From NCBI GenBank assembly GCA_018902385.1, contig JABSSW010000016.1, positions 124,001-188,000 of the forward strand: 64,000 bases of DNA. The letters are read 5' to 3'. The stretch comes from Physcia stellaris. Lineage: Eukaryota; Ascomycota; Lecanoromycetes; Caliciales; Physciaceae. The notes beneath the pieces are model-generated. The model saw nothing but the letters and a program-made list of their open reading frames with translations, did no database searches and was not told where the DNA came from. Below, piece by piece: positions 56,583-61,030 of the stretch (the stretch's first letter is position 1; every line of letters starts with the position of its first letter). The position numbers and the translations under genes are program-made.

Positions 56583-57633
56583 TTTTCAATATATCGAAAT
56601 TCTGTATATCAATTCGTTGCTGTTTTGATGTTGCAATTTCAAATATCATTTTTTCGATATTTTCACATCAAATCATTCATTTTTTGTTCATACACGCGTC
56701 GCGTATTCACGTCGTCGTCGTCATGATCAAACAAAAAATCGTCAAACAATCAAACGTCAACAAATCAAATGTCAAATTTTTCAAAAAATCGAATGTTATT
56801 TTCGATGATTTCACGTTTCGTCAAACACGTTTCGTCGACGTTAAAAAAATCATTTATTTGACGTCAAATTCAACGTCGCGATTTCGATTTCGTCAATCGT
56901 TTTTTCGTTTTTTCGATGTGAAAAAATTCGTGAAAAACGAATTCATCAACGCAAACAAACAAAAATTTTTCGTTTTTAAACGAAAAAACGATATCGACGC
57001 GACGAAAAATCAAATAAAAAAAATGCAATTGAAACGAAATCGTGCGATTTCGTTGATTTTTCACGTGTTTTCGTTGTCGATCAACGATGATACGTTTTTT
57101 CTGATATCAAACGTGAATTTTATTTTTTTTGTTGTATCACAATTTTTTTTTTTTCACAATTTTTACGCAATTGCGATATTCGCGAAATTTCGAACGTTTT
57201 TATTGATTTCAATCAACAAATCGTGAAATTCGTTTTGTTTGTTATTTTTCGATTATTGATCGCAAACATTTCGAAAACATTCGAATCGACAAATTCAAAA
57301 TTAAAAACATGTTGAAATTCGATAAAAATTTTGTTTTCGCGTCAAATAAAATCAATTTTGTCGACAACGCAATTCAAATAATCAAATTCAAAAACATTTT
57401 TGCGTTGTTTAATAATTTATTTTCAAATTGTTTTTTTTATCGCGACGTCAACGATGCGATACGATTTGTCAATAATTCAATCAACATACATGCGAAATTT
57501 GTTGACGATAATGAATCAAAAAATTTTCGTTTTCGTGTTGTTGTATCACGAAAAATTCGTGATTCGTATCATATTCATGAATCAAAACAATTTCAAATTT
57601 TGAATGAAATCGTACGAAAAAACGCGTTGAAAA

Positions 57634-57905
57634 TTGATAAATTTGTTATCGACGATGTCAACGAAACGAAAAAAACAAACGATTAATCAACAAAAAACAC
57701 GTTTATCGTCGTTCGATTTTCAATTTCGAACGACGACGTTTCGTCGATTTTTCGACAAAAATTTCAACGATTTTTATAATCGTTTCAACGACGATTGTGT
57801 CAATTTTCAAATTATCGAAAATTGTATCAAATCGAATTGCAAATAAATTTACGTTTGTTTTATATGTCAACAATCAAATTACGACGAAACAACGTGTTTT
57901 ATTCG
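57634..57905 (+). pseudogene. Gag-like relic with Cys/His knuckle, right retroelement
   Basis: Frame ending ENCIKSNCK, a stop, then YVCFICQQSNYDETTC: a Cys-rich knuckle like that of the left copy. The upstream frame from about 56700 (no Pro, Gly or Trp) is probably the mutated gag body. Confidence 0.5.
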
Positions 57906-58566
57906 TCGTCGATTTTGATTCGTGCGAAAAAAAAATTCGTTACGAATTACGAAATCGTTTTTTTTTCGTGACATGAAAATATTTCTTTTTTTTTGATATG
58001 AATTTCGAAAAATTTTTCATATGACATTGTATCAAAAAACGAAAAAAAATTAAAAATCGAAAATTCGTTGATTCATGATGATTAAAAAACAATGTTACGT
58101 CAATATTTCGATAAATTTTTCGTCAAAACTTTTTGCGTATAATTCGTTTCGATGCGAAAATGAATCACGAAAATTTTTCACAAAGTTTTATATTTAAAAA
58201 TCATGTTTCAATCGAAAAAATTTTTGACGTTTTTATCGTCGATATACAAAAACAATTGACGTTGAATAAATTGTTGATCGTGAAATCACAATTGAAAACA
58301 AATTCGTACATATGTTTTTCGTTGAAATTGATATCGAAAAACGATGAAAATTGAAAACGAATTCACGATTTTTCGCATTTTGCAAACTCGTCAATCAATC
58401 ATTACATACGAAAAAAATATGAAATTTTCGAATATATCGTTGTAAACGATGTCATAATCGCAATAATGCGACGAAATCGTTACGTTCAAATGTTCAAAAA
58501 AAAATTTGTTGACGTTTTTAAACATGTATCGTTGATTGTATCGATTCGTTAAATGTTCGATTTTTA

Positions 58567-58887
58567 TTGATTAAATGTTTATTATTTGAAATTGTTTTTA
58601 TTTTTCGAATTACGCACGACGTTTTTTTATTCGATTTGTTCAATAAAATTTTCAATTACATATTTATCAAATTGTTTAAATGTTTCACGATTTATCATTA
58701 TTTCGATGATTTTTTTCGTGTTATTATCGAACGCAAACACGAAATCATACAAAAAATTGTGAATTCATATTTGCGAAAAATTAAATTTTCGCATCAATGC
58801 AAAAAAAAAACAATCAAATATCGTGATGTCGTTTTTGAACATCGAATTGAATTCAAATTTTATAAAAATCAAATTATTTACAAATAA
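58567..58887 (+). pseudogene. Reverse transcriptase relic, right retroelement
   Basis: A 106-codon frame with HYFDDF at 58696-58713 (the Y-x-D-D polymerase box in DIRS form) preceded by ITHDVFLFDLFNKIF, corresponding to the family's APFLFDLF-like region. It continues into a short thumb-like segment and then stops. Pro, Gly and Trp are absent. Confidence 0.7.
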
Positions 58888-59827
58888 ATTCGAACGCGTT
58901 AAAAAATTGATTCATGACGTCAATAACGAATTTTTCAATTCGATTAATCATCAAAAATTCAATGAATTCGTTGAATTTTTTTTTTTTGCGCGAAAATGAT
59001 TGTGTTTGAAAAATTTTTTTGATTTCGTTTTACAAAATTTTCGATTCGAAAACACGTTTAATACACATCAACGACGACATGCGAATCGATTTGATTTAAT
59101 AAATCGAATTTTTATCGCAATGAAACGAAATCAAATTGTTACGAAAAATTGAAACACGTTTCGAATGTTTGATGTGAATCGACGTTTCAAAAAAATGAAA
59201 CATTGATAATTATCGATTTCGTCATCGACGTGATTTTTTTGACGAAATATTCAATCAACGTTTCAACATTCGATATCGCAAAAAAAAACGAAACATACAA
59301 ATCAAAAAAATGCAAATCGTATTGCATGTCATGCGTATTTGATTCGAAAATTTCAACGATTGCAAATTTATTGTTTATTGTAACAATTAAACGATTTGCG
59401 CAAATTTACGTTCAAACATCATGCGAAATTTTGTCATGAAAAATTTACGCAAAATCGTGATATTGTTGACGATTCACGACATCGAAATTCAAATCGTTTG
59501 AATCGAATTCAAAAAAAATCGTTTTGTTGATTTGTTGTCACGAAATAAACATGATATCATTGTTAACGAATTTGAACAATTAATTTATTTGACATTTTCA
59601 TGATTTCAAATTTTTTTCGTAATTTTTATGCGATTCGAAATTCGTTCGAAAATTGATATGCAAAATGTTTTTTGTTCAAAAAAACAACGAATCATATTTG
59701 ATGAAATTTGATTTTTAATATACGTCACAATTACGAAATTGCGATAAACAATTACAAACGATATTGTTCGATAAAATTGATCGCGTTGAATTTTTGATCG
59801 ATCAACGAATGAATATTATATTATTGA

Positions 59828-60140
59828 ATGATTTTTATGAATATAAATCGTTTGAAATTCAAAATCATCAAAACATACGTTAATGTATTGAAATTTGCAC
59901 ACATTGATCGCGATTATTCAAATTTTTCGATTTTCAATTCGTCGTTATTGCAACGTCACATACGTGAAATAAAAAAAAAATATCAAAAAAACGATCGTCG
60001 AAAACGTAAATTCATTATTCGTAATATTTTGTTGAAATTGTTAACAAAATTCAATATCAATATCAAATGAAACGTCACGATGCACGTTGTTTTTTGTTTG
60101 ATTTTCGCAAATTTTTTTCGTGTAAAAAAATTTACGTATA
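59828..60140 (+). pseudogene. Tyrosine recombinase relic, right retroelement
   Basis: Reads IFNSSLLQRHIREIKKKYQK, then IIRNILLKLL, one stop (60068-60070), then TMHVVFCLIFANFFRVKKFT. It aligns over ~100 residues with the minus-strand relic at 135-446. Located downstream of the reverse transcriptase, as in DIRS-order elements. Confidence 0.7.
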
Positions 60141-60691
60141 AAACGAACAAACAAAACGAATTCGATTTATTTTAATAATTTATTATTCGTTTTTTCGTTA
60201 TTTTACAAATCGATTTTTTAAAATTAATATTTTTTTTTTCAAAATGAATTTTTTTCGTCACGATATTATCATTATTATTGTTGCAACGAACGATGCGAAT
60301 TGTTTTGTCAATTTTTTGCGTTATTTTTTTATCAAATATTTTGCGATAACGAATACGTCATTGTTCGAAATTAAATCGTACAAATTTTTTAATGCACAAA
60401 TGATCACGAATGTGTTGCGCAAAAAATTTTGCATCGTTGAAAAACGTGAATATTATTCAAAACATTTTTTTCGTCGAAAAATCGTTACAAAAATCAAAAT
60501 TCAAAACGTTATCGAAATCATAATTCAAATGTTAAATCGTTAATCGTTCAATTCGTATTTGTTATACATTAACGTCAATAAAACAATCAAATTAATTGTT
60601 TTTCGATGTTTTCAAATTTTTCGAATTCGATAAACGCACGTCGTTTTGTTTGCAACGATTTTCGTTACGCGACGTTGTTTTGAAATTTAAA

Positions 60692-60810
60692 AATTAATCG
60701 ACGATATTATTGTTCAACAAAATTTTTGTTGTAAATGTTTTTTGCATAAACGATGTTCGTTGATCGAATCAATCATCAAAATTTTTATACAAAAATTTTC
60801 AAAAATATTA
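60692..60810 (+). repeat. Split direct repeat B1 (hypermutated)
   Basis: Partner of B2 at 61031-61148: 119 versus 118 nt with one 1-nt indel. About 20 C-to-T/G-to-A differences, about 18 at CpC or CpT. Confidence 0.8.
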
Positions 60811-60954
60811 ATTCGATTTGTTGAACAAAAATATTGATACAAAAAAAACGTATGAAAATTCAATCGTCAAAAAAATTGTTCGAATTTTTTGTTCGTTATA
60901 TTGCAAACGATCGTTCATTGTTTTTTTTTTATTTTTCATTTTTCGAAACGTTTC
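60811..60954 (+). repeat. Split direct repeat A2 (hypermutated)
   Basis: Abuts B1 directly. In the best 115 nt against A1 I count about 39 transitions, about 36 at CpC/CpT, with every CpG and most CpA kept. Confidence 0.8.
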
Positions 60955-61030
60955 GTTTTTCGTTCATTCGTTTTTGAAAAATCGTTTCATGTACATATCA
61001 ATTTCATAATTCGATCGCGTTAAATAAAAA

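Follow-up and report, generated by a model that had tools for sequence, protein, structure and literature searches.

What kind of mutation could strip almost every CpC and CpT dinucleotide from a repeated DNA element and leave CpA and CpG in place? The question is raised by an element of ~4.7 kb, with no class assigned, at 56437..61150 of a 64,000-nucleotide stretch of the Physcia stellaris genome (positions 124,001–188,000 of contig JABSSW010000016.1, hereafter the window; none of its features discussed here is assigned to a strand). This lichen-forming fungus is an ascomycete of the class Lecanoromycetes (order Caliciales), and the genome analysed comprises 43,974,083 bases in 147 contigs. 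A preliminary description of the window, made from its letters alone, attributed the loss to a repeat-directed process with a CpC/CpT target in place of the classical CpA. This interpretation is supported here and proves right in substance: long repeats in P. stellaris are very probably inactivated by a process resembling repeat-induced point mutation (RIP) that targets cytosine before a pyrimidine (CpY, i.e. CpC plus CpT; bottom-strand forms GG and AG).

The interior of the element (56588..61045) is saturated with CpC/CpT-to-TpN changes on both strands. In 56600–61020 (4,421 bases) there are no CC or GG, six CT and one AG, seven CpY dinucleotides in total, whereas in 200 mononucleotide shuffles of the same segment the total averaged 590 and never fell below 537. 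The longest stretch without any of the four dinucleotides spans 2,659 bp (58388–61046), compared with 41 bp within 4312–56400. CA (275), TG (243) and CG (326) are still frequent in 56600–61020, as originally reported, with CG at 4.17 times its expectation; in the background segment 4312–40235, every one of the 16 dinucleotides lies at 0.74–1.15 of expectation. Automatic borders delimit three AT-rich depleted blocks in the window (1–3900, 56551–61150 and 62901–64000), all of which retain CA, TG and CG. The four 60-nt stretches singled out earlier as lacking CC, CT, GG and AG (starting at 1, 2401, 59821 and 60661) indeed contain none, and each has 1–6 CA, 3–6 TG and 2–6 CG. The broader statement that these dinucleotides are nearly absent from the blocks holds for CC and GG in all three but for CT and AG mainly in the 56.6–61.0 kb block: in 1–3400 and 63050–63790, CC and GG are at zero and CT and AG persist at 0.12–0.22 of expectation.

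Direction and context can be read within the element, which holds mutated internal copies of its own unmutated ends. A1 (60683..60812) is a copy of the right end (A2, 61022–61150; 130 bases, 94% in CpY-converted space), and B2 (60807..60959) of the left end (B1, 56431–56586; 157 bases, 92% in the same space); the alignment of the B pair begins ~29 bases left of the element, which adds some noise. Changes in the A pair affect CpC at 4/4, CpT at 16/16, CpA at 3/17 and CpG at 0/10 sites, and in the B pair at 26/26, 17/17, 7/26 and 1/20. Pooled per opportunity, these amount to CpC 30/30, CpT 33/33, CpA 10/43 and CpG 1/30; the earlier counts from the same pairs (54 CpY, 5 CpA and no CpG changes) were lower and had the same direction. 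Eight unmutated short relatives of the element, compared with 60806–61025, gave a similar picture, with changes at 8–23 of 10–23 CpC, 13–26 of 14–26 CpT, 3–6 of 25–30 CpA and 0–2 of 18–30 CpG sites. This old copy thus has a low level of CpA change (about 15–20%) and hardly any at CpG (10/43 vs 1/30 in the pairs, p 0.02).

A direct series came from a second family. Conversion of all fetched sequences by the CpY rule before comparison revealed an unmutated element (L021, C12:57396–60000) with mutated copies in three other fetched stretches (L009, L022 and L023). The open frame in this unmutated element is 646 amino acids (aa) long and contains RNase H, integrase and Tf2-1-like SH3 domains; we therefore refer to the series as Gypsy-type. 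A genome search with this element returned 41 matches including itself (40 of 259 candidates were scored), and the six next-best (L025–L030) were fetched and compared with L021 as reference. L025 (C5:1163594–1166209), 95% alike to L021, is unmutated and provides the baseline (CpA 8/341, CpC 10/407, CpG 15/357, CpT 12/317). From L026 to L030, CpC changes rise from 311/410 through 353/410, 355/410 and 369/410 to 384/411; the same copies have CpT changes at 134/320, 153/318, 168/318, 220/320 and 255/320, CpA changes at 9/340, 9/339, 16/341, 20/340 and 15/340, and CpG changes at 11/360, 12/358, 14/360, 14/361 and 10/361. The pooled values are CpC 1772/2051, CpT 930/1596, CpA 69/1700 and CpG 61/1800, with per-copy ranges of 76–93%, 42–80%, 3–6% and 3–4%, respectively, against a baseline of 2–4%. 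CpC was mutated 1.7–3.0 times as readily as CpT, and CpA did not differ from the unmutated pair (69/1700 vs 8/341, p 0.16). The result was unchanged with an alignment matrix that does not favour C-to-T. There was likewise no loss of CpG to TpG/CpA of the kind known from Basidiomycota (61/1800 vs 15/357 in the unmutated pair).

The heavily mutated Gypsy-type copies (CpC 660/728, CpT 498/579, CpA 92/623, CpG 87/650) show the same two contexts, and so does a pair of Copia elements, L042/L045 (CpC 225/241, CpT 179/214, CpA 18/248, CpG 17/224), which extends the proposed CpY specificity to two families beyond the original element. In the heavy copies CpA and CpG changes are indistinguishable (p 0.52), and we read their 13–15% as divergence within the family; the base 5' of the cytosine has a small effect there (0.89–0.93 for CpC, 0.82–0.91 for CpT). 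The copies showed neither CpA as the main mutated context nor CpY changes no more frequent than base composition predicts, the two outcomes named beforehand as refuting the proposal. Its wording that CpA is spared holds in the sense of a much lower rate, given that the saturated window copy has some change at CpA.

Several observations weigh against this reading or limit it. The window copy has its 10/43 changed CpA sites, and the CpA and CpG counts of the heavy, more diverged Gypsy-type copies (92/623 and 87/650) could hide slow mutation at these contexts. In 15 graded comparisons of sites, the proportion of CpT mutated varied mildly with the 5' base (0.49 when it was G, 0.64 when it was A). 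Nor can the five graded copies be counted as independent, as they have unmutated sites in common beyond expectation. Two unmutated Gypsy-type copies, L021 and L025, coexist at 95% identity with differences that lack CpY bias; the process is therefore not always efficient. The element may have arrived recently, or current activity may be weak. Finally, of six further pairs compared (Copia L043–L045 and DDE_1 L047–L049) only L045 was used for the context claim, and the other five neither support nor refute it. These were too distant or mixed: L043 (CpC 55/162, CpT 37/145, CpA 36/179, CpG 49/157), L044 (CpC 142/234, CpT 104/208, CpA 65/242, CpG 73/225) and the DDE_1 pairs L047–L049, whose CpA and CpG sites differ at 17–36%.

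The pattern might in principle have accumulated slowly, through heterochromatic CpY methylation by a DIM-2-type enzyme followed by spontaneous deamination of 5-methylcytosine, with no RIP-like burst. The genome does encode a DIM-2-like enzyme, the copies do form a graded series, and a review assigns N. crassa DIM-2 a CpT preference in the passage concerned (PMC13297926). Nevertheless, we consider slow decay improbable. The graded copies carry 436–624 CpY changes and only 27–45 substitutions other than C-to-T or G-to-A, compared with 75 such substitutions in the unmutated pair; per site, CpY changes exceed other substitutions 31- to 84-fold, and since the latter do not rise with CpY load, gradual decay is disfavoured. 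Moreover, in a tract of ~900 bp of L026 (600–1500) CpY was mutated at 103/132 top-strand sites and at 5/107 bottom-strand sites, so that one strand is almost untouched; a difference between strands also holds for L026 taken at full length (p 6e-15). Mutation of one strand per round, as in RIP in the broad sense, is therefore observed, in one copy. In Zymoseptoria tritici, the Dim2 mark follows the order CG > CA > CC with almost none at CT, according to PMC8016269, and would not yield a CpY pattern. L026 and L027 have most of their mutated and unmutated CpY states in common and differ in the bottom-strand tract (600–1500), which looks like successive rounds of mutation on a common ancestor, or a gene-conversion tract.

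A process that targets CpY creates stop codons from TGG only. Accordingly, of 72 stops that arose in six Gypsy-type copies, 69 are TGG-to-TGA changes, and the 137 RVT_2 (Copia-type) matches in the genome contain 401 TGA, 102 TAA and 3 TAG, with just 4 of 137 free of stops. In the annotation of such genomes, transposon frames should be expected to break chiefly at TGA.

The mutations also follow repetition and length. Among 15 further 10-kb stretches chosen by position (300 half-kb windows), 53/300 half-kb windows were depleted, all of them within four stretches (53/80), and the 11 gene-rich stretches had none (0/220). C:G-to-T:A transitions are thus concentrated in repeated DNA. The window element has at least nine other copies, each covering at least 3,360 of the 4,641 query bases at 90–93% identity (40 of 98 candidates scored); its borders were set by shared match ends, the left by the common match start at query 734–744 and the right by the common match end at query 164–167. 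There are also at least ten places where both element ends lie next to each other and form a short derivative, such as the 341 bases at C17:340215–340555. All ten fetched loci with short relatives (no longer than about 340 bp) were unmutated. Short repeats thus escape, as under the length threshold of RIP. None of seven frames of the window element, read with TGA as Trp, gave a Pfam match over the cut-off.

The two ends of the element, unmutated in the window, contrast with its interior. The left end (56437..56587, including B1) has 43 CpY dinucleotides in 151 bases; the right end (61046..61150) comprises most of A2, and 61025–61150 has 19 CpY compared with 0 in 60905–61024. In eight other copies (L050–L057), from each of which one end was fetched, the ends are partly spared, with 11–27 CpY in four left ends (43 in the window) and 11–21 in four right ends (19 in the window). 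The ends are thus un- or part-mutated although they are the most repeated parts of the element, being common to numerous short derivatives; this might reflect gene conversion from the short copies, or else an edge effect.

RIP-class enzymes are encoded as well. A search of the genome for C5-methyltransferases, which the preliminary description had suggested as a check, returned four matches in three genes (L001, L006 and L007). L006 is DIM-2-like, aligning with 9bap_A over the BAH and methyltransferase parts (E 4.6e-188); entry 9BAP is named in the DIM2 structure paper (PMC11315935). L001 and L007 match PF00145 over the cut-off and, judging by their sequences, belong to the RID/Masc1 class, so that a RID-class gene of the kind associated with RIP in the broad sense is present. 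RID-a (L007), whose motif reads EQT, clusters with lichen-fungal RIDs from elsewhere (node 96/99). In RID-b (L001, C6:791557–792528) the motif is EET, and the protein shares a clade with Heterodermia aff. obscurata as well as metagenome sequences; this clade is placed with the DmtA group of Eurotiomycetes (node 100/98) and is closer to DmtA than to the RIDs of other lichen fungi. Among the best 120 of 2,567 matches, no named sequence other than that of Heterodermia falls in the RID-b clade. The tree has 43 rows, a midpoint root and several long branches and leaves out N. crassa RID, and the splicing of RID-b is a predicted reading; its catalytic C293 and motif E332 are invariant across 37 aligned sequences. 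The genome also has one Pre-SET (DIM-5-type) match; a search for a chromo-shadow (HP1) domain gave no match here and none in any of the control genomes.

Comparison of the target regions, also proposed at the outset, was carried out for the DIM-2-like protein against the solved DIM2 and left the CpY target unexplained. In the portion of the structure paper dealing with residue roles (PMC11315935), Arg1175 is described as intercalating and Asn1170 is also considered; the Physcia protein has Ile and Ala at these places, given a two-residue offset between the 9bap chain and the numbering of the paper that we deduced. These replacements were rejected as the cause of CpY targeting as they are not specific to Physcia: a crude pattern matched 62 of 120 listed DIM-2 relatives (some off target), and 60 of the 62 had L, I, F or M at the place of Arg1175.

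An AID/APOBEC-type cytosine deaminase acting on single-stranded DNA would also leave C-to-T changes in one-strand tracts, as in L026. Such enzymes, however, read the 5' side of the target C, whereas here the deciding base lies 3' and the 5' base matters little; with three genes for RIP-class C5-methyltransferases as a simpler source, a deaminase is very unlikely. Basecalling can go wrong at modified bases, yet an assembly artefact in which nanopore reads systematically show T for modified C is less likely still: the published P. stellaris assembly was indeed produced by Canu from nanopore reads, but its methods describe correction with Racon and two rounds of Illumina polishing (PMC7513301; probably the assembly analysed here, although the figures in print are 184 scaffolds and 46.57 Mb vs 147 contigs and 43.97 Mb), and partial miscalling would hardly reduce CC plus GG to exactly 0 over thousands of bases. 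The same paper describes axenic cultures grown from ascospores, and the word RIP occurs 0 times in its main text (PMC7513301).

How does a RIP-like process directed at CpY compare with known systems? As in Neurospora crassa RIP, C:G-to-T:A changes in Physcia affect long repeats almost to saturation, include a one-strand tract and spare short repeats, and RID and DIM-2-type genes are encoded. The contexts differ: the order in N. crassa is CpA > CpT > CpG > CpC (PMC5496416), whereas in Physcia CpC exceeds CpT, CpA and CpG are near baseline, and TpA/ApT is lowered (0.42 vs 0.68) instead of raised. Trichoderma reesei, too, departs from the Neurospora specificity, with CpA ~ CpG ahead, then CpT > CpC (PMC5496416, in a line that is damaged in the text), the reverse of the order in Physcia. 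CpT-biased repeat mutation alongside CpA is described for Botrytis, Sclerotinia and Magnaporthe, with CpG elsewhere, in a paper whose Table 2 gives Botrytis and Sclerotinia two RID/Masc1-class genes and whose available text has 0 occurrences of CpC (PMC4352252); for Anisogramma, CpA and CpT are named in the relevant passage (PMC10998396). CpT is a major context in Physcia as in these fungi, but there it accompanies CpA, whereas the leading context in Physcia is CpC, with CpA close to baseline. One passage of PMC7882544 names CpT-to-TpT as the change that dominates in control fungi capable of RIP, and it overshadowed CpA in the N. crassa Tad1 family in the RIPCAL paper's account (PMC2621366); prominence of CpT alone is therefore not new.

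Within the Lecanoromycetes, Cladonia rangiformis is described, in sections of PMC12542154, as having RIP, AT-rich repeats with sharp borders, intermediate copies, and RID and DIM-2 homologues, much as in Physcia. The peak of its mutated DNA is given there as near 16% GC. CpY mutation alone, applied to three test sequences, reaches only 25–27% GC, so other contexts would have to be mutated in Cladonia. In Z. tritici, C-to-T mutation of repeats is increased by a DIM-2-class enzyme; the relevant passages of PMC8016269 place the rise at CpA, in contrast to the target in Physcia, with CT methylation almost absent. Neither RIP confined to CpC and CpT nor CpC first with CpA near baseline was found in the literature searched, which leaves most subscription journals uncovered. 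Clutterbuck's 2011 survey of RIP contexts may contain a comparable case.

RIP is usually recognized by its CpA preference. Standard indices (TpA/ApT above 1.1 with a substrate index below 0.75) and the RIPCAL defaults were applied to 50 depleted and 181 background 1-kb windows and flagged 0/50 of the depleted ones; the RIPCAL pair flagged 1/181 in the background. As noted above, TpA/ApT is lower in the depleted windows than in the background; its highest value among them is 0.63, and the stringent threshold of 1.15 given in a passage of PMC7882544 would thus flag none either. The strong CpA preference and rise in TpA of canonical, Neurospora-type RIP are lacking (CpA 69/1700 vs CpC 1772/2051). 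Heavy mutation of repeats can therefore score zero on the usual indices, and surveys based on them can miss whole systems.

The other two depleted blocks of the window continue beyond its limits. Segment 1–3400 of the second block (1..3900) has 19 CT and 28 AG, and in the adjoining stretch to the left (L008) 17/20 half-kb windows are depleted. Segment 63050–63790 of the third (62901..64000) has nine CT and four AG, and the stretch to its right (L009) is depleted in 20/20 half-kb windows. The third block also contains a (TTTA)n microsatellite of ~24 units (63798–63892). Segments 58308–60134 and 140–1956, from two different mutated blocks, are inverted relative to each other and belong to a distant common family (65% after CpY conversion). 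The unmutated Gypsy-type copy is adjoined by a tandem array of ~300-base units (L021:6149–7394), itself depleted of CpY.

The sequences show C:G-to-T:A change set by the 3' neighbour, graded copies, a one-strand tract, spared short relatives and no accompanying increase in other substitutions; the RIP features accessible to sequence analysis are present apart from the CpA preference of the canonical form. In the proposed process CpC is favoured two- to threefold over CpT, and CpA and CpG are spared or mutated rarely. The process would strike homologous copies in bursts, which in RIP occur before meiosis, and its agent would belong to the RID/DIM-2 class of cytosine-5 methyltransferases. We rank the DmtA-like RID-b first among the candidates, canonical RID-a second and DIM-2 third; RID-b comes first as the unusual component, not from direct evidence. 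Tentatively, the RID-b of Physciaceae may be a dedicated CpY mutator in which the RIP target order is reversed, with CpC as the preferred target and CpA at or near the bottom, though we regard this as rather doubtful.

If true, such a system would kill genes by mass missense mutation and Trp-to-stop changes and would spare CAA, CAG and CGA codons, all of which become stops under the usual mutation at CpA or CpG; CpY systems of the RID-b type would be invisible to TpA-based surveys. What sets the target of RIP is an old question that becomes testable here: the P. stellaris genome combines a clean signature of two contexts with a divergent pair of RID-class enzymes and is a natural starting point for swaps of such enzymes.

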